Source: Anaeromyxobacter dehalogenans 2CP-C
GTDB taxonomy: Bacteria; Myxococcota; Myxococcia; Myxococcales; Anaeromyxobacteraceae
DNA length: 64,000 nt
Direction of reading: 5' to 3'
NCBI RefSeq assembly: GCF_000013385.1
Contig: NC_007760.1
Span: 2,853,001-2,917,000, forward strand
Under the pieces are notes generated by a model. It was not told where the DNA came from, did not search any database, and worked only from the letters and a program-made list of their open reading frames with translations. Numbering within the stretch: position 1 is the stretch's first letter; every line of letters begins with the position of its first letter. This document shows positions 10,598 through 34,308 of this stretch, one piece after another. A program made the translations under genes and the position numbers.

Positions 10598-11608
10598 ATG
10601 CCCGCGCCCTCGCTGCCGCAGCGCTTTCGAGCCTTCGTCGTCCGGGAGGGCGACGGCACCCGCTCCGCCGGCTTCGAGGAGCTGCCCGCCTCCGCGCTGC
10701 CGGAGGGCGAGCTGACGGTCGCGGTCCGCTACTCCAGCCTCAACTACAAGGACGCGCTCGCGGTCACCGGCAAGGGCAAGGTGATCCGGAAGTTCCCCAT
10801 GGTCCCGGGCATCGACCTCGCCGGCACCGTGCTCGAGTCGCGCGACCCGTCGTTCCAGCCGGGCGACGAGGTGCTGGTGACGGGCTGGGGCATCGGCGAG
10901 GCCACGTTCGGCGGCTACGCCGGCCTGGCGCGCGTCCGCGCCGAGTGGGCGCTGCCGCTCCCGCGCGGCCTGACCGCCCGGCGCGCGATGGCGATCGGCA
11001 CCGCCGGGTTCACCGCCGCGCTGTGCGTGGACGCGCTGGAGGACGCCGGCGTGCGCCCCGGCGGCCGGCCGGTGATCGTCACCGGCGCGGCCGGCGGCGT
11101 CGGCAGCGTCGCCGTCGCGCTGCTGGCGCGCGCGGGGTACGAGGTCGCGGCCTCCACCGGCCGCCCCTCGGAGCGCGCCTTCCTGGAGTCGCTGGGCGCC
11201 TCGCGCATCGTGCCGCGCGAGGAGCTGGCGCGGCCGGCCACGCGGCCGCTCGAGTCGGAGACCTGGGCGGGCGGCGTGGACGCGGTGGGTGGCGCGGTGC
11301 TCGCCACCGTGCTCCGCCAGACCGCGTACCGCGGCGCGGTGGCCGCCTGCGGGCTCGCCGGCGGGACCGACCTGCCGGTCACGGTGCTCCCGTTCGTGCT
11401 CCGCGGCGTGCGCCTGCAGGGCGTGGACTCGGTGATGGCGCCGCAGGCGCCGCGCGCGCGGGCCTGGGGCCGCATCGCGCGCGATCTCACCGCCGACCGG
11501 ATCGACGCGCTCACCACCGAGATCCCGCTGGCCGAGGTGCCGGCGTGGAGCGAGCGGATCCTCGCCGGCCAGGTGCGCGGGCGCGCGGTGGTGGCCGTGG
11601 CGCCGTAG
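10598..11608 (+). CDS. zinc-independent MDR oxidoreductase, AcuI/YhdH family (acrylyl-CoA reductase-like)
   Basis: A 336-residue medium-chain dehydrogenase/reductase. It has the quinone-oxidoreductase-type GroES-like N-terminal domain with YSSLNYKDALAVTGKGKVIR, the family hallmark of YhdH/AcuI, and MVPGIDLAGTVLES. The NADPH-binding motif is VIVTGAAGGVGSVAVALLAR. The catalytic zinc ligands of alcohol dehydrogenases are missing. AcuI reduces acryloyl-CoA to propionyl-CoA with NADPH in 3-hydroxypropionate and DMSP metabolism; related YhdH act on small enones, so the precise substrate is open. The start ATG at 10598 has GGAGA 9 bases upstream. An in-frame ATG at 10544 would add 18 low-complexity residues and is rejected. 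Confidence 0.88.
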   Translation: MPAPSLPQRFRAFVVREGDGTRSAGFEELPASALPEGELTVAVRYSSLNYKDALAVTGKGKVIRKFPMVPGIDLAGTVLESRDPSFQPGDEVLVTGWGIGEATFGGYAGLARVRAEWALPLPRGLTARRAMAIGTAGFTAALCVDALEDAGVRPGGRPVIVTGAAGGVGSVAVALLARAGYEVAASTGRPSERAFLESLGASRIVPREELARPATRPLESETWAGGVDAVGGAVLATVLRQTAYRGAVAACGLAGGTDLPVTVLPFVLRGVRLQGVDSVMAPQAPRARAWGRIARDLTADRIDALTTEIPLAEVPAWSERILAGQVRGRAVVAVAP

Positions 11609-11623: not shown

Positions 11624-13345
11624 TCAGCGCGCCGGCCGCAGGTCCTTCAGCTTGAGCTGCAGGCGGCGGGTGCCGTCCCACTCGTCGAAGCCGATGGTGA
11701 ACGCGGCGTCCACCGGGCCGCCGCACGCCGGCGCGCGGTCGCCCATGCCGAAGCCGATGGCGTCGAGGCCGCGCCCGAGCGCGAGCTTCAGGTGCGCGCC
11801 GCCCGCCCCCACCGTCCGCGCGCGCGCCGCGGCGCCGCGCAGCGCGAACACCGGCTCCGGGTGGCCGGCGCCGAACGGCCCGAGCCGCGCCAGCCCCTCG
11901 GCGGCGTCCTCGGTGACCTCGGCGTCGCCCACCCAGCCGTCGATCCGGCAGCGCGGCACCAGGTCCTCGTCCGCGATGGTGGCGGCGGCGTGCGCCTCGA
12001 ACGCGGCGCGGAACGGCTCGACCTGCGCCCGCTCCACCGTGACGCCGGCGGCGTGCCGGTGGCCGCCGAAGCGGGCCAGGTGGCCGGAGCACGCGGCGAG
12101 CGCGTCGTAGAGGTGGAAGCCCTCGATCGACCGCCCGCTGCCCTTCCCGGCGCCGTCCTCCAGCGCCACCAGCACCGCGGGGCGGTGGAAGCGCTCGACC
12201 ACGCGCGACGCGACGATGCCCACGACGCCGGCGTGCCAGCCGTCGCGGGCCAGCACCAGCCCGCGCGCGCCGGCGGCCACCCGCGCCCCCGCGTCGGCGA
12301 GCGCCTGCTCCAGGATGCGCCGCTCGATCTCCTGCCTGGCCTGGTTCTCCCGGTCCAGCTCGTCGGCGAGCGCCTGCGCGGCCGCCGCGTCGCCGGAGAG
12401 CAGCAGGCGCACGCCGCGCCCCGCGTCGTCGAGCCGGCCCGCGGCGTTGATGCGCGGCGCGAGCCGGAACCCCACCTGGCCGGCCGTGACGGGCGTCCCG
12501 TCCGCGATGCCGGCCACGCGCTTCAGCGCGCGCACGCCGGGGCGCCGGCTGGTCGCGAGCTGCTCGAGCCCCCAGCGCACCAGGATCCGGTTCGCGCCGA
12601 CCAGCGGCACCACGTCGGCGACCGTGCCGAGCGCGACGAGGTCGAGCACCTCCTTCAGGTTCGGCTCGGGCCGGGCCGGGCCGAAGCGACCCCGCTCGCG
12701 GAGCCGGCGCCGGAGCGCCATGGCGAGCGCGAACGTCACGCCCACCGCGGCCAGGTCCTTCGACGGGTAGGCGCAGCCGGGCTGGTGGGGGTTGAGGATG
12801 GCGGCGGCGGCCGGCAGCTCCACCGGGACCGTGTGGTGGTCCACCACCACCGTGTCCACGCCCAGCCCGGCGGCGACGCGCACCTCGTCCACGCTCGTGA
12901 TCCCGCAGTCGAGCGTCACCAGCAGGCGGACGCCCTGCGCGGCCAGGCTGCGGACGGCGTCGCCGTTGAGGCCGTAGCCCTCCACCAGCCGGTGCGGCGT
13001 GTAGGTGACGACGTCGGCCCCCGCCGCGCGCAGGAAGCCGCAGAGGAGCGCGGTCGAGGTGACGCCGTCCACGTCGTAGTCGCCGTAGCAGGCGATGCGC
13101 TCGCCGCCCTCCAGCGCGCGCGCGATCCGCTCGACCGCCGCCTCCATCCCCTTCATGCGGAACGGATCCGGCAGGTCGGCGAGGCGCGCGGCCAGGAAGG
13201 CCTCGGCCTCCGCCGGGTCCGCGTGGCCGCGGGCCGCGAGCACGCGCGCGGCCAGCGGGTGCAGGCCCAGGGCGGCGGCCAGCTCCGCCGCGCGCGCCGC
13301 GTCCACCGCCGCCTCCACCCACCGCTTCCCGGTCGCGACCGACAC
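11624..13345 (-). CDS. recJ: single-stranded-DNA-specific 5'-3' exonuclease RecJ
   Basis: A 573-residue member of the DHH phosphoesterase family, close to the length of E. coli RecJ (577). The order is the DHH domain, with CYGDYDVDGVTSTALL (D89, D91, D93) and VVVDHH (D169, H170, H171), then DHHA1 with GRSIEGFHLYDALAACSGHL followed by ARFGGHRHAAGVTV, then the C-terminal OB-fold. RecJ degrades single-stranded DNA 5' to 3' in recombination and mismatch repair. The start is GTG at 13343-13345; the frame stays open upstream but the extension is Arg/Pro-rich noise. Its stop lies 15 bases from that of the convergent AcuI-like gene. Confidence 0.93.
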   Translation of the reverse strand: MSVATGKRWVEAAVDAARAAELAAALGLHPLAARVLAARGHADPAEAEAFLAARLADLPDPFRMKGMEAAVERIARALEGGERIACYGDYDVDGVTSTALLCGFLRAAGADVVTYTPHRLVEGYGLNGDAVRSLAAQGVRLLVTLDCGITSVDEVRVAAGLGVDTVVVDHHTVPVELPAAAAILNPHQPGCAYPSKDLAAVGVTFALAMALRRRLRERGRFGPARPEPNLKEVLDLVALGTVADVVPLVGANRILVRWGLEQLATSRRPGVRALKRVAGIADGTPVTAGQVGFRLAPRINAAGRLDDAGRGVRLLLSGDAAAAQALADELDRENQARQEIERRILEQALADAGARVAAGARGLVLARDGWHAGVVGIVASRVVERFHRPAVLVALEDGAGKGSGRSIEGFHLYDALAACSGHLARFGGHRHAAGVTVERAQVEPFRAAFEAHAAATIADEDLVPRCRIDGWVGDAEVTEDAAEGLARLGPFGAGHPEPVFALRGAAARARTVGAGGAHLKLALGRGLDAIGFGMGDRAPACGGPVDAAFTIGFDEWDGTRRLQLKLKDLRPAR

Positions 13346-22238: not shown

Positions 22239-22895
22239 TCAGCCCTCGTCGGCGGCGGCCGGGACCCGGGCCCGGCGCGCCTCCTTCACCTTGTGCCAGA
22301 CGAACCAGGCCACCGCGAGCACGCCCGCGACGACGATGACCAGCTCGAAGCGGTGGTAGACGGCCTTCACCCGCGGATCGGTGTGCCAGGCCTCGCCGGC
22401 CCACTCGCCCACCCACGCCAGCGCGTAGCACCACGGGTAAGAGCCGACGAACGTGTAGGCGATGAACTTGCCCATCGGCATGCGCGACACGCCGGCGGGG
22501 AACGCGATGAACGTGCGGACGACCGGGAGCAGCCGGCCCGCGAACACCACCCACTGGCCCCAGCGCTGGAACAGCCGGTCGGCGAGGTCGAGCTCCTTGT
22601 GCGAGAGGAGCACGTAGCGGCCGTACTTCTCGATGAGCGGCCGGCCGCCGAACTGGCCCAGGTAGTAGGCCGGGATGGATCCCACCACGCAGCCGATGGC
22701 GCCGGCCAGCGCCGCGCCGTGCAGCGTCATCTCGCCCCGGTACACGAGGTACCCGGCGAACGGCATGATGATCTCGGAGGGCAGCGGGATGCACGCGCTC
22801 TCGATGGCCATCAGCAGCACGATGCCGCCGTAGCCCATCGACGAGATCACCGACGTGGTGAACACCGCCAGCGCCTCGATCACCTTGGAGATCAT
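22239..22895 (-). CDS. DedA/SNARE-associated family membrane protein
   Basis: A 218-residue polytopic protein with about five membrane segments. IESACIPLPSEIIMPFAGYL and GRLLPVVRTFIAFPAGVSRM are DedA (SNARE_assoc, VTT) signatures containing the conserved E and the G-R-x-x-P-x-x-R core. DedA proteins flip polyprenyl phosphates or phospholipids and affect envelope homeostasis and membrane potential. The start ATG at 22893-22895 overlaps the stop of the upstream kamA-family gene by four bases; a longer in-frame start at 22979 would add an Arg-rich segment inside the neighbouring gene and is rejected. Confidence 0.9.
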   Translation of the reverse strand: MISKVIEALAVFTTSVISSMGYGGIVLLMAIESACIPLPSEIIMPFAGYLVYRGEMTLHGAALAGAIGCVVGSIPAYYLGQFGGRPLIEKYGRYVLLSHKELDLADRLFQRWGQWVVFAGRLLPVVRTFIAFPAGVSRMPMGKFIAYTFVGSYPWCYALAWVGEWAGEAWHTDPRVKAVYHRFELVIVVAGVLAVAWFVWHKVKEARRARVPAAADEG

Positions 22896-24100
22896 TCGCC
22901 CTCGCCGTCCCCGCCCGCCGGGCCGCCTCGCGCGGCCGCGTCGGCGCGGTAGTAGACCGCCTCGTAGGGGCAGGTGCAATCCTGCTCCGGCGGCTCCGGA
23001 TAGAAGTAGCGCTCGCCGCGCCCGTTGCGGAGCCAGTGGCCCCGCGCGCCCTCCTCGCCTTCCCCCGCGAGGTACTGCGGCTGCAGCGTGACCTTGCCGC
23101 CGCCGCCCGGGAGGTCCACCGCCAGGTGCGGGATGGCGAGCCCGCTGGTGCGCCCGCGCATCGCCTCGAGGATCGCCACGCCCGCCGCGAGCGGCGTGCG
23201 CAGGTGGCCGGTGCCGGCGGCGAGGTCACCCTGGTGCAGGTAGTAGGGGCGGACGCGGAAGGTGAGCAGGCGCTCGTTCAGGTCGGTGAGGATGCGCGCG
23301 GAGGAGTTCAGGCCGCGCAGCAGCACCGACTGGTTCTCGACCGGCACGCCGTGGTCCACCAGCCGCTCGCAGGCCTCGCGCGCCTCGGGCGTGCACTCCT
23401 TCGGATGGTTGAAGTGCGTGATGACGAACAGCGGCGCGTGGCGACGCAGCGCCGCCGCGAGCGCCTCGGTGACGCGCATCGGGTTCGTGACCGGCGCGCG
23501 CGTGGCGACGCGCAGCACCTGCACGTGCGGGATGGCGCGCAGGCCGGCCAGGATCCCGTCGAGCTTCTGGTCGGACAGCGAGAGCGGGTCGCCGCCCGAC
23601 ACGATCACGTCGCGCACCTCGCGGTGCGCCCGCACCCACGCGATCCCCTCCTCCACCGCGGCGCGGTCGAAGCCGCCCTCGTCGTCGCTGAACGTGATGC
23701 GCCGCCGGGTGCAGTGGCGGCAGTAGACCGCGCACCGGTCCACCGCCAGGAACAGCGCGCGGTCGGGGTACTTGTGGACGATCGCGCGCACCGGCCGGTG
23801 CGGCTCCTCGCCGATCGGATCGTCGAGGTCGCCCGGCGCGGGCACCGCCTCGGCCGCCGACGGCATCACCTGCAGCCGGACCGGGCAGCCCGGGTGGTCG
23901 CGGTCGATGAGCGAGGCGTAGTAGGGCGTCGCCGCCACGCGGGTGTGCCCGGCCGCGAGCGCGAAGCCGCGGCGCTCGGCCGGGGTGAGCGGGAACAGCC
24001 GCTCGAAGTCGGCGGCCGTGGCGAGCGCATGGCGCTGCTGCCAGCGCCAGTCGCGCCACTCGGCCTCGGTGGTGCCGGGGAAGAGCTCTCGCCAGGTCAT
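22892..24100 (-). CDS. lysine 2,3-aminomutase family radical SAM enzyme (diverged paralogue)
   Basis: A 402-residue KamA-family protein. CAVYCRHCTRRR carries the C123-x3-C127-x2-C130 site for the radical-SAM [4Fe-4S] cluster. The PLP lysine lies in VDLPGGGGK. Asp residues corresponding to the lysine-ammonium-binding pair of lysine 2,3-aminomutase are present in HQGDLAAG and in VDLP. The C-terminus has an unusual tail with CTCPYE. It could isomerise lysine or another amino acid, or act in EF-P-type modification; substrate unknown. It heads the run kamA-like-dedA-spoIID-queA. The ATG at 24098-24100 is chosen because upstream frame is noise. It is divergent from a second KamA at 24345. Confidence 0.85.
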   Translation of the reverse strand: MTWRELFPGTTEAEWRDWRWQQRHALATAADFERLFPLTPAERRGFALAAGHTRVAATPYYASLIDRDHPGCPVRLQVMPSAAEAVPAPGDLDDPIGEEPHRPVRAIVHKYPDRALFLAVDRCAVYCRHCTRRRITFSDDEGGFDRAAVEEGIAWVRAHREVRDVIVSGGDPLSLSDQKLDGILAGLRAIPHVQVLRVATRAPVTNPMRVTEALAAALRRHAPLFVITHFNHPKECTPEAREACERLVDHGVPVENQSVLLRGLNSSARILTDLNERLLTFRVRPYYLHQGDLAAGTGHLRTPLAAGVAILEAMRGRTSGLAIPHLAVDLPGGGGKVTLQPQYLAGEGEEGARGHWLRNGRGERYFYPEPPEQDCTCPYEAVYYRADAAARGGPAGGDGEGE

Positions 24101-24344
24101 CGCGGGTGCGGCGCAGGCCTCAGGAGACCGGGGGGGAGCGCACGCGAGGCGCGGAAGGTAACGGCAGCAGGCAGCCGAGTCAAACCTCCAGGGGCCCGGC
24201 AGGGTTCCGTGCCTGCCCTCCAGGCGAGGGCTCCCCTTTCGGCTACACCGCGGGGGCGCCGTCGCAGATGTCAATGGCGGCCCTCTCTGTTAAGCAATGC
24301 GGGCGAACGGGCTGCCGGACCGGGCCTCCTGGAGCGAGCACGAC

Positions 24345-25592
24345 ATGGCGAATCTTCCGGTGATGGGCGACGTCGGCGGGGTGACCGAGGAGCTGGCCGG
24401 CGGCGGCCGGACGAACGGGGAGGCGAAGGCCCCGGCGGTGCGGCGCGAGGACGCGCCCCGCCCGGTGGCGAACGTGCTGTCCCGGTTCAAGCCGGGCCCG
24501 CGCTCGATCTGGGCCGACGTGCCCGACGCGCTCTGGAACGACTGGCACTGGCAGCAGCGCGAGCGCGTCATCCGGCTCGAGCAGCTCGAGCGCGTCCTGC
24601 GCGTCACGCCGGAGGAGCGCGAGGCGGCGGTGAAGACCGAGGCCGAGTTCCACATGGGCATCACGCCGTACTACGCGGCGCTGATGGACCCCGAGGACCC
24701 GACCTGCCCCATCCGCCTCCAGTCGGTGCCGACGATGGGCGAGCTCAACATCCTCGCGTCCGACCTCGAGGACCCGCTCGCGGAGGAGCGGGACATGCCG
24801 GTGCCGGGCATCACGCACCGCTACCCCGACCGCGTGCTGTTCTACACGACGCACAACTGCCCGGTGTACTGCCGCCACTGCACGCGCAAGCGGAAGGTCT
24901 CCGACCCGACCAGCGCCGCGGCCAAGCGGCAGATCGAGGAGTCGCTCGCGTACATCGCGCAGCACCCCGAGATCCGCGACGTGGTGATCTCCGGCGGCGA
25001 CCCGCTCTCGCTCTCCGACGACCGGCTCGACTACATCCTCGGCCGGCTCCGCGCCATCCCGCACGTCGAGATCTTCCGGCTCGGGACGCGCAACCTCGTC
25101 ACGCTGCCGCAGCGCGTGACCGACGACTTCGTGTACATGCTGCGCCGGCACCACCCGGTCTACGTGAACACGCACTTCAACCATCCGAAGGAGTGCACGG
25201 CCGAGGCGTTCGAGGCCGCCCGCCGCCTCGCCGACGCCGGGTGCGTCATCGGCAACCAGATGGTGCTGCTGAAGGGCGTGAACGACGATCCGGCGGTGGT
25301 GAAGGAGCTGAACCACAAGCTCCTGCTCATGCGGATCCGGCCCTACTACATCTACCAGTGCGACCTGGCGCGCGGCATCAGCCACTTCCGCACGCCGGTC
25401 GAGGCCGGCATCCGCATCATCGAGGCGCTCCGCGGCCACACCTCGGGCCTCGCGGTCCCGCAGTTCGTGGTGGACGCGCCGAACGGCGGCGGCAAGATCC
25501 CGGTGAACCCCGAGTACGTGGTCTCCCACGAGGGGAAGCGCTGGGTGCTCCGCAACTTCGCCGGCGAGCGGTTCGAGTACGTCGAGCCGTAG
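24345..25592 (+). CDS. kamA: lysine 2,3-aminomutase (KamA family)
   Basis: A 415-residue radical SAM/PLP enzyme that interconverts L-lysine and L-beta-lysine. NCPVYCRHCTRKRKVSD holds C172, C176 and C179. VVISGGDPLSLSDDRLDYIL and YVNTHFNHPKECT are family blocks. Substrate-binding Asp residues lie in YQCDLARGISHFRTPVEAG and VVDAPNGGGK, the latter also giving the PLP lysine. The N-terminal 45 residues precede the conserved WNDWHWQQRERV region. The ATG at 24345 has GGAG ten bases upstream. In related bacteria beta-lysine feeds N-acetyl-beta-lysine osmolyte synthesis or lysine fermentation; no partner (ablB, kamD/E) is in the window. A perfect 12-bp hairpin follows the gene. Confidence 0.9.
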   Translation: MANLPVMGDVGGVTEELAGGGRTNGEAKAPAVRREDAPRPVANVLSRFKPGPRSIWADVPDALWNDWHWQQRERVIRLEQLERVLRVTPEEREAAVKTEAEFHMGITPYYAALMDPEDPTCPIRLQSVPTMGELNILASDLEDPLAEERDMPVPGITHRYPDRVLFYTTHNCPVYCRHCTRKRKVSDPTSAAAKRQIEESLAYIAQHPEIRDVVISGGDPLSLSDDRLDYILGRLRAIPHVEIFRLGTRNLVTLPQRVTDDFVYMLRRHHPVYVNTHFNHPKECTAEAFEAARRLADAGCVIGNQMVLLKGVNDDPAVVKELNHKLLLMRIRPYYIYQCDLARGISHFRTPVEAGIRIIEALRGHTSGLAVPQFVVDAPNGGGKIPVNPEYVVSHEGKRWVLRNFAGERFEYVEP

Positions 25593-26116: not shown

Positions 26117-28357
26117 TCACACGCGCTGGACCGACTGCACGCCCTCGATCCGCTCGATGCTGCGGATGACCGAGTTGAGCTGCTTCAGGTCGCCGATGGT
26201 GACCTCGAAGTCGTTCACCGCGCGCTCGCCCGGGGTGGTCCGGCAGCTCGCCTGCGAGATGTTGACGCCGGCCTCGCTGAACGTCTGGGAGATCTTGGCG
26301 AGGATGCCGGGGCGATCGGTGGTGATGACCCGCAGCGAGACCGGTCGCTTGAAGTCGCCGCGCACGTCCCAGGCCACGTCCACGCGCCGCTCCGGGTCGA
26401 TGCCCAGCACCTTGTCGCAGGAGGCGGTGTGCACCGTCACGCCGCGGCCGCGGGTGATGAAGCCGACGATCGCGTCGCCCGGCACCGGGTTGCAGCACTT
26501 GCCGTAGCGGACCAGCACGTCGTCGATGCCGTTGATGCGGACGCCCTCGGTCGGGCGGCGCGCCATCTTCCGGAACAGCTCGGTGATGCGGCTGGTCGGC
26601 GCCGCCTCCGCGGGCGGCGGCGGCTCGGCGAGCCGGTCGGGCGGGAGCACCTGCTGGAGGAGCTGCCCCGGCGACACCTTGCCGTAGCCGACCGCGGCGA
26701 GCACGTCGTCCGCCACGCGGTACCCGAGCGCCTGCGCCGCCTTCTCCAGCTCGCCGCCCTTCTGCAGCTTGTTGAGCGTGACGCCGAAGCGGCGCAGCTC
26801 GCGCTCGGCGATGTCGCGGCCGATCTCCACCGAGCGCCGGTGCTCGGCCTGGCGGATGAACTGGCGGATGCGGGCCTGCGCGCGGCTGGTCTTGACGAAG
26901 GTGAGCCAGTCCTTCGACGGGTGCGCGTTCGGGCTGGTGAGGATCTCGATGGTGTCGCCGTTCTTCAGCGTGTAGCGGAGCGGGACGAGCTTGCCGTTCA
27001 CCTTCGCGCCGACGCAGTGCTCGCCGATCTCCGAGTGGATCGTGTAGGCGAAGTCCACCGGCGTGGCGCCGCGCGGCAGGCTCTTCACCGCGCCCTTCGG
27101 CGTGAAGACGAACACCTCGTCGGAGAACAGGTCCACCTTGACCGTCTCCAGGAACTCGCGCGGGTCGGCGAGGTCGCGCTGGAACTCCACCAGCTGGCGC
27201 AGCCAGCCGAACGACGCCGCGTCCTTGCGCGACAGCTCCGCGCCCTTCCCGTCGCGCCCCTTCTCCTTGTAGGCCCAGTGCGCCGCCACGCCCTCCTCGG
27301 CGATGCGGTGCATCTCGCGGGTGCGGATCTGCACCTCGATGCGCTCGCCCGCCGGGCCCACCACCGTGGTGTGGAGCGACTGGTAGAGGTTGGGCTTCGG
27401 GATGGCGATGTAGTCCTTGAAGCGGCCGGGCACCGGCTTCCACAGCGAGTGCACGAACCCGAGCGACTCGTAGCACTCGGCCACGGTGTCCACGATGACG
27501 CGGAACCCGATGACGTCCTGGATCTGCTCGAAGTCCACGTCGAGCTGCCGCATCTTCCGGTAGATCGAGTAGACGTGCTTCACGCGCCCCGAGACGTCGG
27601 CCTTCATGCCGGCCTCGGCCAGCCGGCGCCGGATGATCTCCACCACCTCGGCGACGAACCGCTCCTTCTCGCGGGCGCGCACCGAGACCTTCTCGTTCAG
27701 CTCCGAGTAGTCGGCCGGGCGCAGGTACTTGAACGACAGCTCCTCCAGCTCGGTCTTGATCCACTGGATGCCGAGCCGGTTCGCGAGCGGCGCGTAGATG
27801 TCCAGCGTCTCGCGGGCGATGCGCTCCTGCGACTCGGGCTTCATCGCGTCGAGCGTCCGCATGTTGTGGGTGCGGTCCGCGAGCTTCACCAGCAGCACGC
27901 GGATGTCCTTCGCCATCGCCACCACCATCTTGCGGAAGTTCTCCGCCTGCTTCTCCTCCTGCGTGTTGGCGGCGGTGAACTGCGACAGCTTGGTGACCCC
28001 GTCCACCAGGTCGGCGATCTCCAGGCCGAACAGCTCGGAGATCTCCTTCTTGGTGGCGAGGGTGTCCTCGATGGTGTCGTGCAGCAGCCCGGTCACCACC
28101 GACGACTCGTCCAGCTTCAGCTCGGCGAGGATGCCGGCGACCTCCAGCGGGTGCACCAGGTACGGCTCGCCCGACTTGCGGATCTGCCCCTGGTGCACCT
28201 TGGCGCTGTAGACGTAGGCCTTCTTGATCAGGTCGAGATCGGGATCGGGGTGGTAGCCGGATACCCGGTCAAGGATGTCGTTGAGCCTGAGCAAGGTCGA
28301 AGGGCCAGCGTAACGGGTCGCGTCCGAGTGCGGCAAGCTTGTGGGCCTGCCCATCAT
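26117..28357 (-). CDS. rel: bifunctional (p)ppGpp synthetase/hydrolase (Rel/SpoT)
   Basis: A 746-residue stringent-response enzyme with all domains of a long RSH protein. The HD hydrolase domain has SSVVTGLLHDTIEDT and VLLVKLADRTHNMRTLDAM, so hydrolase residues are intact. The synthetase domain has GRFKDYIAIPKPNLYQSLHT and the following TVVGP. TGS is around VFVFTPKGAVKSLPRGATPV, then a helical and zinc-finger region with YGKCCNPVPGDAIVGF, then a C-terminal ACT domain beginning SLRVITTDRPGILAKI. It makes and degrades pppGpp/ppGpp in response to amino acid shortage. No second RSH gene is seen here. The start is uncertain: ATGATG at 28357-28352 is used, and a TTG at the conserved LLRLNDILDRV is the alternative. 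Confidence 0.94.
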   Translation of the reverse strand: MMGRPTSLPHSDATRYAGPSTLLRLNDILDRVSGYHPDPDLDLIKKAYVYSAKVHQGQIRKSGEPYLVHPLEVAGILAELKLDESSVVTGLLHDTIEDTLATKKEISELFGLEIADLVDGVTKLSQFTAANTQEEKQAENFRKMVVAMAKDIRVLLVKLADRTHNMRTLDAMKPESQERIARETLDIYAPLANRLGIQWIKTELEELSFKYLRPADYSELNEKVSVRAREKERFVAEVVEIIRRRLAEAGMKADVSGRVKHVYSIYRKMRQLDVDFEQIQDVIGFRVIVDTVAECYESLGFVHSLWKPVPGRFKDYIAIPKPNLYQSLHTTVVGPAGERIEVQIRTREMHRIAEEGVAAHWAYKEKGRDGKGAELSRKDAASFGWLRQLVEFQRDLADPREFLETVKVDLFSDEVFVFTPKGAVKSLPRGATPVDFAYTIHSEIGEHCVGAKVNGKLVPLRYTLKNGDTIEILTSPNAHPSKDWLTFVKTSRAQARIRQFIRQAEHRRSVEIGRDIAERELRRFGVTLNKLQKGGELEKAAQALGYRVADDVLAAVGYGKVSPGQLLQQVLPPDRLAEPPPPAEAAPTSRITELFRKMARRPTEGVRINGIDDVLVRYGKCCNPVPGDAIVGFITRGRGVTVHTASCDKVLGIDPERRVDVAWDVRGDFKRPVSLRVITTDRPGILAKISQTFSEAGVNISQASCRTTPGERAVNDFEVTIGDLKQLNSVIRSIERIEGVQSVQRV

Positions 28358-28595
28358 CTCAGATCCCGTAACGCGGCGCGCCAGCCCGTGCCATGACCCG
28401 GGGGCGCGGCAGGCGCCGGGACGGGTCGCGGCGGCCCCCGGGACAGGGGTGGGGGGCGCCCGGAGGGCCGTCCGGCCGAGCCGGGGCGTGAGGCCGAGCG
28501 GCGCGCCCGGGCGTCGGCCGCGGCCCGGCCTGCACCGGACGTTGAGGACCCCGTCGGCGCGGGGTAACGTCCCGCCGGGCCAGGGAGACGACGGG

Positions 28596-29705
28596 ATGAC
28601 CTGCGAAGGCTGCGGCGCGGCGCTCGACGCCACCATGGACCGGTGCCCGGCGTGCGGCCGCGAGCTCGAGTTCGGCCGGCTCACCGGCATCCTGGGCGTG
28701 GTCTGCCGCGCCTGCGACGCGTACAACGAGCCGGGCGCCCGGGCCTGCGCCGCGTGCGGCAAGCCGCTCGGGGCGGGCGAGTCGCCGCCGCCCGGCACCC
28801 CGAAGCCGGTGTCGCCCCCGGCCCCGGCCCGCGCGGCCGCGCCCGCCGCACCCGCGCCCGCGGCCCCCGCCGCCCCGGCGCCCGGTTCACCCATCGTGCA
28901 TGCCATCGGGCGCGCCGGCGCCGCCGCCACCCGCTTCATCCCCGCGTCGGCCATCCGCGCGCTCCGGCCCGACCCGCGCTCCGCGCCCGCCCCCGCCGCC
29001 GCCCCCGCCGCAGGCCCGCCCTCCGGCGCACCGCCGCTCGCGCCGGGGCGCGTGGAGCTGGTGCCCGAGCCCGGCCCCGGACCGGCCCGGGCGCCCTTCC
29101 GGCTGGCGCGGCCGTCCACCGTGGCCGGCCGGAGCGAGGGCGCGCTCCGCCTCGCCGACGACCCGTCGATCGGCAGCCGCCACGCCACGTTCCTGTTCCG
29201 CGACGGCGCGCTGCTGGTCCGCGACGAGGGCGCGCCCGGCGGCGTGCTGGTGCGGCTGCGCGGCCACCCCGCCTCGCTCCGCCCGGGCGATCCGTTCGCG
29301 GTCGGCGGCCGGCTGCTCCGCTACGCCGGGCCGCTGCCGCCCCCGCCGCTGCCCGCGGCCGACGGCACCCGGCGCATCGGCTCTCCGCGCCCGCCGCCGC
29401 CGGCGGTGGCCGTGGAGGAGCTGCTGGAGGGCGGCGCGCCCGGGCGCACCTGGGTGCGCAGCGGGCCCTCGATCACCGTGGGGCGGGCCGGCGCGGCGGT
29501 GTCGCTCGGCGACGACCCGAGCATCGCGCCCGCCCACGCCGAGCTGCGCATCGAGGCGGACGGCACCGCCCGCCTGCGCGATCTCGGCTCCGCCACCGGG
29601 ACGTTCGCGCGCGTCCCGCCGCACGGCGAGCGCGAGCTGCGCGAGGGCGACGCGGTGCGCCTGGGCCGGACGGTGCTGCGCGTGAGCGCGATCGCCGATC
29701 CCTGA
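28596..29705 (+). CDS. zinc-ribbon and double FHA-domain protein (A)
   Basis: A 369-residue protein. At the N-terminus are two zinc-ribbon-like Cys4 units: CEGC...CPAC (residues 3-20) and CRAC...CAAC (about 38-55). A long Pro/Ala linker (about 65-160) follows. The first forkhead-associated domain has VAGRSEGALRLADDPSIGSRH (phosphothreonine-binding GR and SRH). The second, near residue 290, has TVGRAGAAVSLGDDPSIAPAH and DLGSATGTF, where the SRH serine/arginine and NG are replaced, so it may not bind phosphopeptides. FHA proteins serve Ser/Thr kinase signalling, common in Myxococcota. ATG start with GGGAG upstream. It forms a paralogous pair with the gene at 30310. Confidence 0.82.
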   Translation: MTCEGCGAALDATMDRCPACGRELEFGRLTGILGVVCRACDAYNEPGARACAACGKPLGAGESPPPGTPKPVSPPAPARAAAPAAPAPAAPAAPAPGSPIVHAIGRAGAAATRFIPASAIRALRPDPRSAPAPAAAPAAGPPSGAPPLAPGRVELVPEPGPGPARAPFRLARPSTVAGRSEGALRLADDPSIGSRHATFLFRDGALLVRDEGAPGGVLVRLRGHPASLRPGDPFAVGGRLLRYAGPLPPPPLPAADGTRRIGSPRPPPPAVAVEELLEGGAPGRTWVRSGPSITVGRAGAAVSLGDDPSIAPAHAELRIEADGTARLRDLGSATGTFARVPPHGERELREGDAVRLGRTVLRVSAIADP

Positions 29706-30207: not shown

Positions 30208-30309
30208 GGCCGGATGGTAGCCCGGCGCGCACCGCGCCGCACGTCCGCGCGTCCCGCGTTCCTGGTACCTGCGTTGACCCATGGCGATGGGCGTGGCGGA
30301 ATGCGCCGC

Positions 30310-31197
30310 ATGGCGAGGGACGCGGCGTGCCCGCGGTGCGGACGGGAGAACGGGACGGCGGTCGCGTTCTGCCAGGAGTGCGGGCTGCCGCTGCGCGCGC
30401 CCGGGCCGGCGGCGGAGCCGCCCGCGGGCGGTGGCCGGCGCTGCGGCGGCTGCGGCGCCGGGCTCGAGCCCGAGGACCGGTTCTGCGCGCGGTGCGGGAC
30501 CGCCGCCGCGCCCCGGCCCGGCGACCCGCACGCGGCGCCCACCGCCTCCGGCATCGCCGGCCCGCCGCCGCCGTCCTTCCGGCTCGCCGCGGTCCGCACC
30601 GACGGCCTGCCCGGCGCCGAGTACGGGGTGCCGGCGCCGGAGGCGGTGTGCGGGCGCACCGAGGGTGAGATCCGGATCCCGGACGACCTCACCATCTCGC
30701 CGCGCCACGCCTGCTTCCGCGTGCAGGGCGCCGCGCTGCGGGTGGAGGACCTGGGCAGCGCGAACGGCACCTTCGTCCGCATCCGCCGCCCCCACCGGCT
30801 GGCCGTCGGCGAGGAGATCCGCGTCGGCCGGCAGCTCCTCCGGCTCGAGCCGCTCCCGCGCCCGCCCCCCGCGGTGCACGGCGTGCGGAGCTGGGGCGCG
30901 CCGGATCCGGGCTGCCGCTTCCGGCTGTCGCAGCTCCTGGAGGGCGGCGGGCAGGGCGAGATCGTGCCGCTGCTCGAGGGCGAGAACGCCATCGGCCGCG
31001 AGGCCGGGCGGATCAGCTTCCCGGCCGACCGCTACGTCTCGGCGCGCCACGCGCGCATCGACGTGCGGGGCGACGCGGTCACGCTGGTGGACCTGGGCAG
31101 CTCCAACGGGACGTTCGTGCGCATCTCGGCGCCGACCGAGATCGCGCCGGGCGACCAGCTCCTGCTCGGCGCCCAGCTCCTGCGCGTCGAGGCGTGA
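30310..31197 (+). CDS. zinc-ribbon and double FHA-domain protein (B)
   Basis: A 295-residue paralogue of the protein at 28596. Two Cys4 ribbons come first: CPRC...CQEC and CGGC...CARC (within the first 65 residues). Two FHA domains follow, both with full signatures: CGRTEGEIRIPDDLTISPRH with DLGSANGTFVRI, and IGREAGRISFPADRYVSARH with DLGSSNGTFVRI. Both should be able to bind phosphothreonine peptides, unlike the second domain of the other paralogue. It probably links a zinc-ribbon-mediated contact to Ser/Thr kinase signalling (inferred). The start is ATG at 30310 with GGCGGA nine bases upstream; ATG at 30301 is a close alternative. Confidence 0.82.
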   Translation: MARDAACPRCGRENGTAVAFCQECGLPLRAPGPAAEPPAGGGRRCGGCGAGLEPEDRFCARCGTAAAPRPGDPHAAPTASGIAGPPPPSFRLAAVRTDGLPGAEYGVPAPEAVCGRTEGEIRIPDDLTISPRHACFRVQGAALRVEDLGSANGTFVRIRRPHRLAVGEEIRVGRQLLRLEPLPRPPPAVHGVRSWGAPDPGCRFRLSQLLEGGGQGEIVPLLEGENAIGREAGRISFPADRYVSARHARIDVRGDAVTLVDLGSSNGTFVRISAPTEIAPGDQLLLGAQLLRVEA

Positions 31198-31293: not shown

Positions 31294-31656
31294 CTAGCCG
31301 AAGGACTTCTCCTTCTGCTCCTGCTCCTCCTTGCAGCGGATGCAGAGGGTGGTCACCGGCCGCGCCTCGAGGCGCTTGGCGGAGATCTCCTCCTCGCACT
31401 TCTCGCAGATGCCGAACGTGCCGTTCTCGATGCGCGCCAGCGCCTTGTCGATCTTGGCCAGCAGGAACTTCTCGCGGTCCCGCAGCCGGAAGATCATCGA
31501 CTGCGTGTACTCGCTCGAGGCCAGATCGATCTCGTCCGGGAGGTCGTCCGTGTCGAAGGACGATTCCTCGGTCAGGGTCTTCTTCGCCTGCACGAGGAGC
31601 TGGCGCTTGGACTCCTCCAGCATCGTCTTGAACCTCTTGAGATCCTTCTTGTTCAA
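31294..31656 (-). CDS. DksA/TraR-type RNA polymerase-binding transcription factor
   Basis: A 120-residue DksA-like protein that would bind in the secondary channel of RNA polymerase and act with (p)ppGpp. The N-terminal coiled coil (about residues 1-75) carries PDEIDLAS, where D41 and D44 match the DxxDxA tip of E. coli DksA. The C-terminal zinc finger is C84-x2-C87...C105-x2-C108 (GICEKCEE and LCIRCKEE). It is somewhat shorter than E. coli DksA (151), lacking the N-terminal extension. The start is TTG at 31654-31656, just before the predicted helix; ATG at codon 12 is the alternative. A strong sigma-70-like promoter lies about 50 bases upstream. Rel lies a few kilobases away. Confidence 0.92.
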   Translation of the reverse strand: MNKKDLKRFKTMLEESKRQLLVQAKKTLTEESSFDTDDLPDEIDLASSEYTQSMIFRLRDREKFLLAKIDKALARIENGTFGICEKCEEEISAKRLEARPVTTLCIRCKEEQEQKEKSFG

Positions 31657-31707: not shown

Positions 31708-31736
31708 AACCTAAACGGCAGGGGTGCCGGTGTCAA
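31708..31736 (-). promoter_or_regulatory. strong sigma-70-like promoter of the dksA-like gene
   Basis: On the minus strand a perfect TTGACA (31736-31731) and TAGGTT (31713-31708) are 17 bases apart. Transcription would start near 31701, leaving a leader of about 45 bases before the TTG start of the dksA-like gene. It is one of the few perfect -35 boxes in this G+C-rich window. Confidence 0.6.
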
Positions 31737-31851
31737 GGTGAGGGGGCGCCCGCCGGGCGTGCCGCCGGCGCGGCGCCTCCCGCGTCCGGCGGAGGCGCGC
31801 GGGGCCGGCGAACCTTTTGACTCGGGCACCGCCGCGGCGGATCCTCCGCGG

Positions 31852-32736
31852 ATGGCCGACGGCAAGCTGGATCGCGACTTCCTCCGCAGCGCGCTCGCGC
31901 TCATGTCGCGCTCGGACGTGGACCGGCTCCTGTTCGTGTCCGACCACCCGCCCTCGCCGACCGAGGTGCGCGGCCGTCCGACCAAGCGCAAGCTGGTCTA
32001 CGCGGTCTCGAGCGAGGGCATCGCGAACCAGCTCAAGGCCAAGAAGGCGACGGCGGTGATGATCCCGCCTTACGACTACACCCGCATCGAGAAGATCAAG
32101 GTGGCCGTGGTGGCGGCGCAGTCGGCCGGGCTGCTCAAGGACGGCGACACCGTGCTGGCGCTGTGCGGCCCCGGCGACGACCGGGTCATGGACACGCTGG
32201 TGAAGCTGGTGATCGGCTCGGAGGACCCGGAGGAGAAGCTCCGGGTGGACACGCTGGGCCTGCCGCCGGAGTTCTCGTCCCAGGTGGTGGAGAGCCTCAT
32301 CCACACCGCCATGGAGATCGGCGCGGAGGGCTACGAGGGCCACCCGGTGGGCACCATCGTGGTCGTCGGCGACTCGACCGCGGTGATGGAGAAGAGCCGG
32401 CAGCTCATCCTCAACCCGTTCCAGGGGATCAGCGAGGCGGAGCGGAACGCGCTCGATCCGCCCATCCGCGAGGCGATCAAGACGTTCTCGGCGCTCGACG
32501 GCGCCTTCATCATCCGCGAGGACGGGGTGGTGCTGGCGGCCGGGCGGTACCTGCTCTCCATGTCGCGGGACGTGAAGCTGCCCATGGGCCTGGGGGCGCG
32601 CCACAGCGCCGCGGCCTCGATCACCGCCGAGTCCAACGCCGTCGCGATCACCGTGTCCCAGACCACCGGGACGGTGCGGGTGTTCCGCGAGGGCGAGATC
32701 GTGCTGGAGCTGCGGCAGAAGCTGCGGCGCGTCTGA
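31852..32736 (+). CDS. DisA_N/DAC-domain protein, candidate diadenylate cyclase
   Basis: A 294-residue soluble protein whose C-terminal half is a DisA_N (diadenylate cyclase, DAC) domain. FSALDGAFIIREDGVVLAAG holds the DGA motif (D216-G217-A218) and GLGARHSAAASITAESNAVA the RHR region. In proven c-di-AMP cyclases the second motif is RHRAA; here it is R250-H251-S252, so the second Arg is lost and activity is uncertain. The N-terminal 130 residues (KLVYAVSSEGIANQLKAKKA and on) form a separate alpha/beta domain typical of this proteobacterial subgroup. There are no membrane segments, unlike CdaA. ATG at 31852, shortly after the divergent dksA-like gene. Confidence 0.83.
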   Translation: MADGKLDRDFLRSALALMSRSDVDRLLFVSDHPPSPTEVRGRPTKRKLVYAVSSEGIANQLKAKKATAVMIPPYDYTRIEKIKVAVVAAQSAGLLKDGDTVLALCGPGDDRVMDTLVKLVIGSEDPEEKLRVDTLGLPPEFSSQVVESLIHTAMEIGAEGYEGHPVGTIVVVGDSTAVMEKSRQLILNPFQGISEAERNALDPPIREAIKTFSALDGAFIIREDGVVLAAGRYLLSMSRDVKLPMGLGARHSAAASITAESNAVAITVSQTTGTVRVFREGEIVLELRQKLRRV

Positions 32737-32790: not shown

Positions 32791-34308
32791 GTGCCGAGCC
32801 CCGCCGAGCCCGCTCCGTCGCCGCGCGCCGTCCCCTCCGCCCCGCCCGCCTCGCCCCTCCGCGACCCGCGCCTCGACCGGCTGGCGCTCGCGCTCGGCGC
32901 GGCCGTCACCGCCCTGCACGTCGCCTACGGCGGGCTGATCGCGCTGTCGCCGCAGGAGGCCTACTACTGGACCTGGAGCCGGCGGCTCGCGCTCTCGTAC
33001 TTCGACCACCCGCCGCTCGCCGCCTGGACCATCGCGCTCACCACCGCGCTCGCCGGCGAGGGCGAGCGCGCCATCCGGCTCGCCGCCGCGCTGCACTCGG
33101 CCGTCTTCGCGGTGTTCCTGTGGCTCACGGTCCGGCGGCTGTTCGGCTCGCGCCCGGCGCTGGTGGCGCTCGCGGCCGCGCTCAGCGTGCCGCTGTTCGG
33201 CATGGGCCAGGTGATCGTCACGCCCGACGCCCCGCTGCTCTCCGGCTGGGCGATGGCGCTGTACTTCACGGTGCGCGCGCTCGACGAGGAGCGGCCGCGC
33301 TGGCTGCTCGCGGCCGGCGCGGCGGTGGGCTGGGCGGTGCTGGGCAAGTACACCGGGTTCCTGCTGCTGCCGCAGATCCTGCTGGTGCTCGCGCTCGACC
33401 CGCGCGGCCGGCGCATGCTGCGAACGCCCTGGCCGTGGCTGGGCGCGGCGCTGGCGCTGGCGCTGTTCTCGCCGGTCGTCGCCTGGAACCTCCAGCACCG
33501 GATGGCGAGCTTCGCGTTCCAGACCGCCGAGCGCGTCGAGCGCTCGGGGTTCCGCCCGGTGCTGGTGGGGCGCTTCCTCGCGCTGCAGGCCGGGCTCGTG
33601 ACGCCCATCGTGCTCGTGCTCCTGGTCGAGGCGGTGGTGGCCGCGGTGCGCCGCCGCCGCGAGGCGGCCTACCGGATCTGCGCGATCTTCTCGGCGCCGC
33701 TGCTCGTGCTCGCGGCGGTCATCTCGCCGTTCCACTGGGTGAAGGGCAACTGGCTGGCCGCGGCCTACCCCACCGCGCTCGCGGCCGCGGCCGCCCTGGC
33801 GGTGGAGCGGCGCGGCTGGCGCTGGAAGGCGGGCGTCGCCGGGGTCGCGCTCGCGGCGGCCGCGTCGGTGTACGTGCACCTGGTGCCGGTCTGGCCGGCG
33901 CTGCCGTTCCCGGCGCGCGACGAGGGCTCCTCCGGCTGGCGCGAGCTGGCCGCGCGGGTGGAGGCGGAGCGCGCCGCGCTCGGGCCCGACGCGTTCGTGG
34001 CGGGCTGCAACTACAAGGTCTCCGCCGAGCTGGAGTACTACCTGCCCGGCCGGCCGCGCACCTGGTCGTCCGAGATCACCGGCGAGCACGGGCTCCAGTA
34101 CCGCTACTGGTTCGACCCCGAGGCGCTCCGCGGCCGCTCCGGCGTCCTGGTGCTCGACCGGCGCGAGAAGCGCACCTGCCTGCGCCGCGCCGAGGCGTGC
34201 GCGCCGCTCGAGGCGCTGCCGCCGCTCACCGTGCGGCGCGGCGGCGACGAGGTGACGACGTTCCAGCTCTGGCGCTGCCGCTGGGCCGGGCTCCCCTCGT
34301 CCCGCTGA
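32791..34308 (+). CDS. family 39 glycosyltransferase (ArnT/PMT-like membrane enzyme)
   Basis: A 505-residue integral membrane protein with about 10 hydrophobic helices and a C-terminal soluble part (from about residue 365). LSPQEAYYWTWSRRLALSYF followed by DHPPLAAWTIALTT is the GT-C signature region of the PMT_2/GT39 family, with the catalytic acidic residue in the first periplasmic loop and the DHPP motif. VTPDAPLLSGWAMALY follows the second acidic motif. Such enzymes move a sugar from polyprenyl phosphate to lipid A, protein or glycan at the periplasmic face; the acceptor is unknown. The start is GTG at 32791. The 3' end overlaps the convergent TIGR02757 gene by 83 bases. Confidence 0.85.
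   Translation: MPSPAEPAPSPRAVPSAPPASPLRDPRLDRLALALGAAVTALHVAYGGLIALSPQEAYYWTWSRRLALSYFDHPPLAAWTIALTTALAGEGERAIRLAAALHSAVFAVFLWLTVRRLFGSRPALVALAAALSVPLFGMGQVIVTPDAPLLSGWAMALYFTVRALDEERPRWLLAAGAAVGWAVLGKYTGFLLLPQILLVLALDPRGRRMLRTPWPWLGAALALALFSPVVAWNLQHRMASFAFQTAERVERSGFRPVLVGRFLALQAGLVTPIVLVLLVEAVVAAVRRRREAAYRICAIFSAPLLVLAAVISPFHWVKGNWLAAAYPTALAAAAALAVERRGWRWKAGVAGVALAAAASVYVHLVPVWPALPFPARDEGSSGWRELAARVEAERAALGPDAFVAGCNYKVSAELEYYLPGRPRTWSSEITGEHGLQYRYWFDPEALRGRSGVLVLDRREKRTCLRRAEACAPLEALPPLTVRRGGDEVTTFQLWRCRWAGLPSSR

Follow-up and report, generated by a model that had tools for sequence, protein, structure and literature searches.

Diadenylate cyclases of the DacZ/CdaZ class combine an N-terminal domain resembling the C-terminal domain of pyruvate kinase with a C-terminal DAC domain, an architecture laid out for DacZ and CdaZ in the available text of Braun et al. 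2019 (PMC6741144). According to the same portions of that paper, DacZ of H. volcanii makes c-di-AMP in vitro, is active with manganese only and is encoded by an essential gene. Some bacteria have members of the class too, and a figure legend lists the accessions of homologues from Myxococcus and Stigmatella (Myxococcales); a DacZ-type protein is thus already in print for myxobacteria (PMC6741144, available text). For the CdaA class, contacts to ATP have been described in L. monocytogenes: in section 7 of PMC7288161 they include Thr102, Arg103 and His104 of the GxRHRxA motif, the third Arg being unlisted there, and the second Glu of the SEE motif binds metal. The Thr before RHR contacts phosphates in CdaA (PMC7288161, same section) and, in the available account of that enzyme, in S. 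aureus DacA. Published RHR mutants, as they appear in the available excerpts on the enzymes of M. tuberculosis, B. thuringiensis and M. bovis, had all three letters changed to Ala together and thus say nothing on the third letter alone.

Here, we present an analysis of a DAC-domain gene from Anaeromyxobacter dehalogenans 2CP-C. The window, that is the whole stretch of DNA analysed, comprises 64,000 nucleotides (NC_007760.1, positions 2,853,001 to 2,917,000 of the forward strand), and the coordinates given for this locus refer to it. An initial annotation of this DNA had reported Arg250-His251-Ser252 in place of the RHR motif together with an intact DGA motif, which the translation bore out, and had regarded the protein as either a diverged c-di-AMP synthase or a domain confined to nucleotide binding. 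By analogy with relatives of the same class, the gene very probably encodes an active DacZ-class diadenylate cyclase making c-di-AMP. The gene and its parts are as follows.

31852..32736, plus strand: dacZ, putative DacZ-class diadenylate cyclase of 294 aa (translation, PF02457 and PF21755, purifying selection)
31876..32223, plus strand: N-terminal DacZ_P domain, residues 9-124, with a fold like the pyruvate kinase C-terminal domain, putative sensor (PF21755, model alignment)
32320..32697, plus strand: C-terminal DAC domain, residues 157-282 (PF02457, model alignment to CdaS, DisA and CdaA structures)
32497..32505, plus strand: DGA motif, residues 216-218 (translation, conservation in 99 unique DacZ-class proteins)
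32599..32607, plus strand: RHS, residues 250-252, where the RHR motif would be (conservation, third position variable)
32656..32664, plus strand: Ser269-Gln270-Thr271, where CdaA has Ser-Glu-Glu (sequence and class alignment, CdaA roles as in the available text of PMC7288161)

In the translated product, Asp216-Gly217-Ala218 forms the DGA motif, and the codon of Ser252 is AGC (32605-32607). Pfam searches identified the DAC domain with 73.9 bits (cut-off 27, E 1.1e-20) and, ahead of it, the DacZ_P domain with 36.7 bits (cut-off 27.4). The latter domain identifies the subfamily and was absent from the initial annotation. Compared with five Anaeromyxobacter orthologues, dacZ showed a dN/dS of 0.11-0.16, a value that places the frame under purifying selection and does not tell binding from catalysis.

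The best match among the NCBIfam models was the haloarchaeal DacZ model NF041371 with 148.5 bits, below its equivalog cut-off of 430 bits. The models of CdaA, CdaM, CdaS and DisA scored from 16.8 to 37.8 bits on the window protein, the extremes being DisA (NF010009, 16.8 bits, cut-off 201) and CdaA (TIGR00159, 37.8 bits, cut-off 188.8), both below threshold. DisA and the window protein are both DAC enzymes by their domains, but the catalytic DAC domain is N-terminal in DisA and C-terminal here, in a protein ending at residue 294. Since RHS stands in place of the full RHR motif of the canonical DGA/RHR cyclases (CdaA, CdaS, CdaM, DisA), the protein is not filed under any of these classes. The hallmarks of the DacZ/CdaZ class are present, namely a DacZ_P domain followed by the DAC domain at the C-terminus, and the residues Asp216, Arg250, His251 and Ser269. 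Domain architecture and NCBIfam scores thus point to the broad DacZ/CdaZ class and not to a diverged CdaA or DisA. By sequence and predicted structure, the window protein is a DacZ-class diadenylate cyclase which belongs to the same broad class as the haloarchaeal equivalog NF041371, yet is no member of it.

An AlphaFold model, built from 38 aligned sequences of which 37 came from genome-contig loci and one was the window protein, reached a mean pLDDT of 80.5 and a pTM of 0.70. Its residues 5-131 align to the pyruvate kinase C-terminal domain (Z 9.2, rmsd 2.6, 120 residues aligned) and residues ~133-290 to the solved DAC domains of CdaS, DisA and CdaA (Z 10.0-13.7), with B. cereus 2fb5 at Z 13.7, M. 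tuberculosis DisA at Z 12.8 and L. monocytogenes CdaA 4rv7 at Z 11.8. No DacZ-class protein stood out in sequence searches of the PDB, where a solved one may still be present. With regard to viral relatives, a scan of IMG/VR contigs gave 23 pattern matches, none of them confirmed, and a tblastn search of a phage collection returned no relative of the window protein.

With H. volcanii DacZ and M. jannaschii CdaZ, the window protein shares the position of the DAC domain behind a pyruvate-kinase-C-like domain and the conserved DGA motif. In contrast, its identity to the two aligned haloarchaeal DacZ proteins is only 25-26%, it has GARH in place of GTRH, and no mscS gene adjoins it, whereas halobacterial dacZ forms an operon with mscS2 (PMC6741144, available text). 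The window protein and CdaA (TIGR00159) have in common the DAC fold, DGA and RH as well as the Ser of SEE. The two differ in that CdaA has a membrane N-terminal region where the window protein has its DacZ_P domain, together with GARHSAA and SQT; we expect the protein to be soluble.

The third motif position was surveyed in a collection of DacZ-class proteins. A profile of nine myxobacterial members yielded 128 open frames at E values up to 1e-5, 119 of which scored above 100 bits and were kept; the nine dropped frames came from loci with CdaA-type matches. After merging of identical copies, 99 unique DacZ-class sequences were obtained, including the window protein. They were collected with a myxobacterial profile and only two come from outside the Myxococcota, the phylum to which the counts therefore chiefly apply. 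At one locus (L063, 703-2024), the dacZ match extends over two open frames, both in the collection, perhaps owing to a frameshift or an assembly error.

Position 252 is occupied by Ala in 65 of the 99 unique sequences, by Ser in 17, Thr in seven, Arg in four and His in two, with Gly, Met, Asn and Val found once each. Asp216, Gly217, Gly248, Arg250 and Ser269 are invariant (99/99), Ala218 is present in 96/99, and His251 is kept in 97, the other two having Asn. As position 252 varies while D216, R250 and S269 do not, RHS is no departure from the protein's own class; on this comparison, a third Arg is no rule in the DacZ class and RHS is normal for it. Ser252 is present in all eight same-genus genomes with the gene (eight of nine have it, and the ninth genome is 66% complete); it also occurs in several close relatives and in two more distantly related genomes (L034, L123). 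Arg, in turn, is limited to four Anaeromyxobacter-related MAGs (L055-L058), three of which (L056-L058) are labelled uncultured Anaeromyxobacter. In CdaA-type copies, a motif search gave Arg as the third letter in 20/22 and Leu in 2/22. The initial annotation had pointed to an alignment of the subgroup at this position, with the thought that Ser might be standard in its active members. In part this is the situation found, with Ser in the eight same-genus genomes that have the gene and Ala, Ser or Thr in most other members; activity of the RHS members would follow by analogy.

Two minor variants appeared in the same alignment. The DacZ motif of L055-L058 reads GARHRSA and is followed by a short insertion. 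L128 and L133, which read GTRNAAA, are the only two among the 99 with Asn for the motif His and are possibly inactive or altered.

The window protein shows two further differences from CdaA. The residue before RHR is Ala249, as it is Ala in 89/99 DacZ-class proteins, and at the position of the second Glu of the SEE motif (Glu124 of CdaA) all 99 proteins have Thr or Ser, here Thr271. The lost Thr contact and the lost metal-binding Glu are departures that may matter more than Ser252. They would fit a catalytically dead DAC domain acting as a receptor for ATP or c-di-AMP, with CdaA making the signal in this genome, and a canonical-RHR CdaA is indeed encoded in it, so that dacZ could be spare. We regard such a receptor as improbable because the core residues are invariant throughout the class, Asp216, Gly217, Arg250 and Ser269 in 99/99 proteins, with His251 kept in 97/99; the distribution of the class described below also speaks for DacZ as an active cyclase.

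The haloarchaeal branch of the class was probed with family models. Two copies on Haladaptatus megaplasmids (L120, L121), annotated as dacZ, both read RHH, and one of them was scored with changed letters, fewer than 20 residues being tried. With NF041371, the third position gave 451.6 bits for Met, 449.8 for the native His, 449.1 for Thr, Gln and Val, 449.0 for Ser and Tyr, 448.9 for Arg and Ala, 448.8 for Leu and 448.7 for Glu. Replacement of the first Arg or of the His by Ala lowered the score from the native 449.8 to 446.0 and 445.0 bits, respectively (cost 3.8 and 4.8). The models of CdaA, CdaM, CdaS and DisA, in contrast, put Arg ahead of His, Ser, Ala, Thr and Met by at least 3.0 bits. 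Judged by its family model and not by the H. volcanii sequence, the haloarchaeal DacZ family, that of the active H. volcanii enzyme, has no preference for Arg at the third position, where the model favours Met; in this the window protein is alike. In the same kind of letter-change probe, neither the DisA model nor NF041371 preferred the second Glu of CdaA.

The Ser could also be taken as a specificity change in an active cyclase with an altered substrate or product, e.g. another cyclic dinucleotide. Its presence in all eight same-genus genomes with the gene makes a lineage-specific role conceivable, and the metal-site residues are unlike those of CdaA. We nevertheless consider this extremely improbable: position 252 is not among the base and phosphate contacts listed for CdaA in the available text of PMC7288161, the residue there may be Ala, Ser, Thr, Met, His or Arg while D216, R250 and S269 stay fixed, and relatives of the protein co-occur with c-di-AMP riboswitches.

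The 5.01-Mb genome contains two DAC proteins, the DacZ-class protein and a CdaA with GTRHRAA and SEE at G000:C1:1724503. This second cyclase with its canonical RHR lies elsewhere in the genome, beyond the view of the initial annotation, and its gene is flanked by Pterin_bind (folP-like) and PGM_PMM (glmM-like) genes. In addition, the genome encodes a PgpH-type protein (7TMR-HDED, 7TM, HD) and three transporters with RCK_C domains, one of them a Na/H exchanger. The initial annotation had named a genome empty of c-di-AMP-related genes as evidence against its reading; with CdaA, PgpH and RCK_C proteins present, this is not the situation found. As CdaA is also there, these genes cannot be credited to DacZ. 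YbbR had no match in the genome, and the c-di-AMP riboswitch RF00379 gave no hit at threshold in the genome (with stricter filters) or in 19 kb around cdaA. A candidate c-di-AMP phosphodiesterase in the window was discarded, the DHHA1 match at ~11993-12259 being RecJ. At L143, a 129-aa frame without Pfam match (10994-11383) lies between cdaA and the glmM-like gene, at the place where we would presume cdaR.

A wider survey covered 174 Myxococcota genomes with a completeness of 85% or more, of which 154 had a DAC match; E. coli, a control genome, gave none. Myxococcus xanthus is among the carriers of dacZ (L101). Sorted by best match, 131 genomes have DacZ only, 13 have both types and ten have CdaA only; this sorting rests on scores, among the matches listed, and one DacZ-only genome (G022) is represented by a weak match (E 2.7e-4). 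Many myxobacteria thus appear to rely on a DacZ-class protein as their sole detected DAC, a distribution that speaks against a binding-only domain. PgpH was found in 126/131 DacZ-only genomes, in 13/13 with both types and in 8/10 with CdaA only, and it is weak evidence since 12/20 genomes without a DAC match have it as well.

More telling is the c-di-AMP riboswitch RF00379, which was detected in 12/174 genomes, all 12 having a DAC match. In ten of them a DacZ-class protein is the sole detected DAC, and all ten read RHA; they represent four genera, with seven genomes from one genus. A KUP potassium transporter gene directly follows the riboswitch in all four loci examined out of the 12 (L154-L157, all from that genus and with a DacZ-class protein as the only DAC detected; by Pfam in one and by tblastn in four). 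A c-di-AMP riboswitch in a genome with no other detected cyclase argues that DacZ without a third Arg makes c-di-AMP, and this runs against a receptor-only DAC domain. Because all ten lack Ser and no riboswitch was detected in the window's genome, the step to RHS is made by analogy. Within these limits, the co-occurrence implies activity and is the strongest genomic sign of it for the DacZ class. Of the two options of the initial annotation, the synthase is therefore the better supported; the word "diverged" does not hold, position 252 being variable in the DacZ class.

In the mechanism that we propose for the active cyclase, the DAC domain would bind ATP, and c-di-AMP would be formed from two ATP molecules between two such domains facing each other. 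Asp216 of the DGA motif, Arg250, His251 and Ser269 would make up the catalytic and phosphate-binding core, with Ser252 outside it at a position that varies freely in the DacZ class. Allosteric sensing is the probable role of the pyruvate-kinase-C-like domain at the N-terminus. DacZ would work beside the CdaA-type cyclase of this genome, and the output is probably potassium and osmotic control. For DacZ-type proteins in general, a non-Arg third residue alone is no ground to call them inactive, by which a false alarm is removed. c-di-AMP signalling in myxobacteria also becomes testable, and DacZ-only species with a riboswitch before a potassium transporter gene would provide a clean genetic system.

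The gene neighbourhood of dacZ consists of the following features.

26117..29188, minus strand: Rel/SpoT protein (HD, RelA_SpoT, TGS and ACT by Pfam), true start probably internal, ~2.7 kb upstream of dacZ
30214..31197, plus strand: zinc-ribbon/FHA protein, upstream neighbour of dksA (Pfam)
31294..31656, minus strand: dksA-family gene with TTG start, divergent from dacZ (DksA_N PF21157 and zf-dskA_traR PF01258)
31708..31736, minus strand: candidate dksA promoter TTGACA-N17-TAGGTT (read in the sequence)
31817..31845, plus strand: candidate dacZ promoter TTGACT-N17-GATCCT, 6 nt before the ATG (read in the sequence)
32791..34308, plus strand: PMT_2 family protein, downstream neighbour (Pfam)

The adjacent dksA-like gene and the rel gene a few kilobases away, both reported initially, were confirmed. 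The dksA-family product matches the E. coli DksA structure 1tjl with E 6.6e-21 and keeps DxxDxA, which we take to be the tip motif of DksA. It is not the only dksA-like gene, as six zf-dskA_traR matches were found in the genome.

A divergent dksA gene adjoins dacZ in 80/80 of the nearest loci (L040-L119, out of 196 relatives identified). Among 20 further loci, mostly from deeper Myxococcota, nine have dksA; in the other eleven, including L130 from the same order, it is absent from the ~1.1-1.3 kb upstream. Likewise, L034 and L039 have no dksA within 1.5 kb upstream. Rel is located upstream in 25/36 loci having at least 8.4 kb of upstream sequence, and the FHA gene is near dacZ in 59/74 loci with room or a match. 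The PMT gene is near dacZ in 15/73 such loci, its synteny being kept only in close relatives. One record labelled Comamonas sp. KCTC 72670 (L103) carries a myxobacterial-type rel-FHA-dksA-dacZ locus and is probably mislabelled or contaminated.

On the dksA side of the intergenic region, the best -35 element is TTGACA in 59/80 loci and TTGACA, TTGACT or TTGACG in 77/80; a score of at least 9 of 12 is reached in 69/80 loci, compared with 2/80 shuffled intergenic sequences. On the dacZ side, 12/80 loci have their best site ending 6 nt ahead of the start codon, and scores on this side are no better than those of shuffled sequence. With the candidate promoter at this distance in the window, the dacZ mRNA may be leaderless. 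A scan with a stricter promoter tool found no promoter on either side at its threshold. A regulatory footprint shared by dksA and dacZ was considered and dropped, as the TTGACA of the dksA side is conserved and the dacZ side resembles shuffled sequence.

These data bear on a stringent-response module, an idea compatible with the active cyclase: DksA and Rel would act through the common intergenic region on the transcription of dacZ, and (p)ppGpp would thereby be coupled to c-di-AMP. The constancy of divergent dksA in the nearest loci and the frequency of upstream Rel, set against the much less conserved downstream PMT neighbour, agree with such a module, as does the inhibition of a c-di-AMP phosphodiesterase by ppGpp in Listeria (PMC7288161, available text). 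We hold it to be rather unlikely, given that the 80 loci are the nearest of 196 and dksA is missing from 11/20 further ones and from L034 and L039, that the FHA gene, also retained, may point to a conserved chromosomal block, and that the dacZ-side promoter is not conserved. The nucleotide-signalling neighbourhood suggested initially therefore stands as conserved synteny in the nearer relatives and does not stand as a functional link, although a DksA-DacZ link is possible. A more specific proposal, which we consider unlikely, concerns the Myxococcia: dksA and dacZ would be an old, conserved divergent pair near rel, with c-di-AMP synthesis governed by DksA and (p)ppGpp and with DacZ contributing an input from metabolite sensing of the pyruvate-kinase-like kind. 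If true, a single locus would bring together the stringent response, central metabolism and osmotic control. A literature search, mostly short of full texts, brought up no published description of a link between DksA/(p)ppGpp and DacZ. The pairing of dksA and dacZ is a concrete place to look for crosstalk of c-di-AMP with the stringent response. Beyond rel, the window also contains two adjacent divergent radical SAM genes at 22892-24274 (minus strand) and 24297-25592 (plus strand), both with lysine-2,3-aminomutase C-terminal domains.
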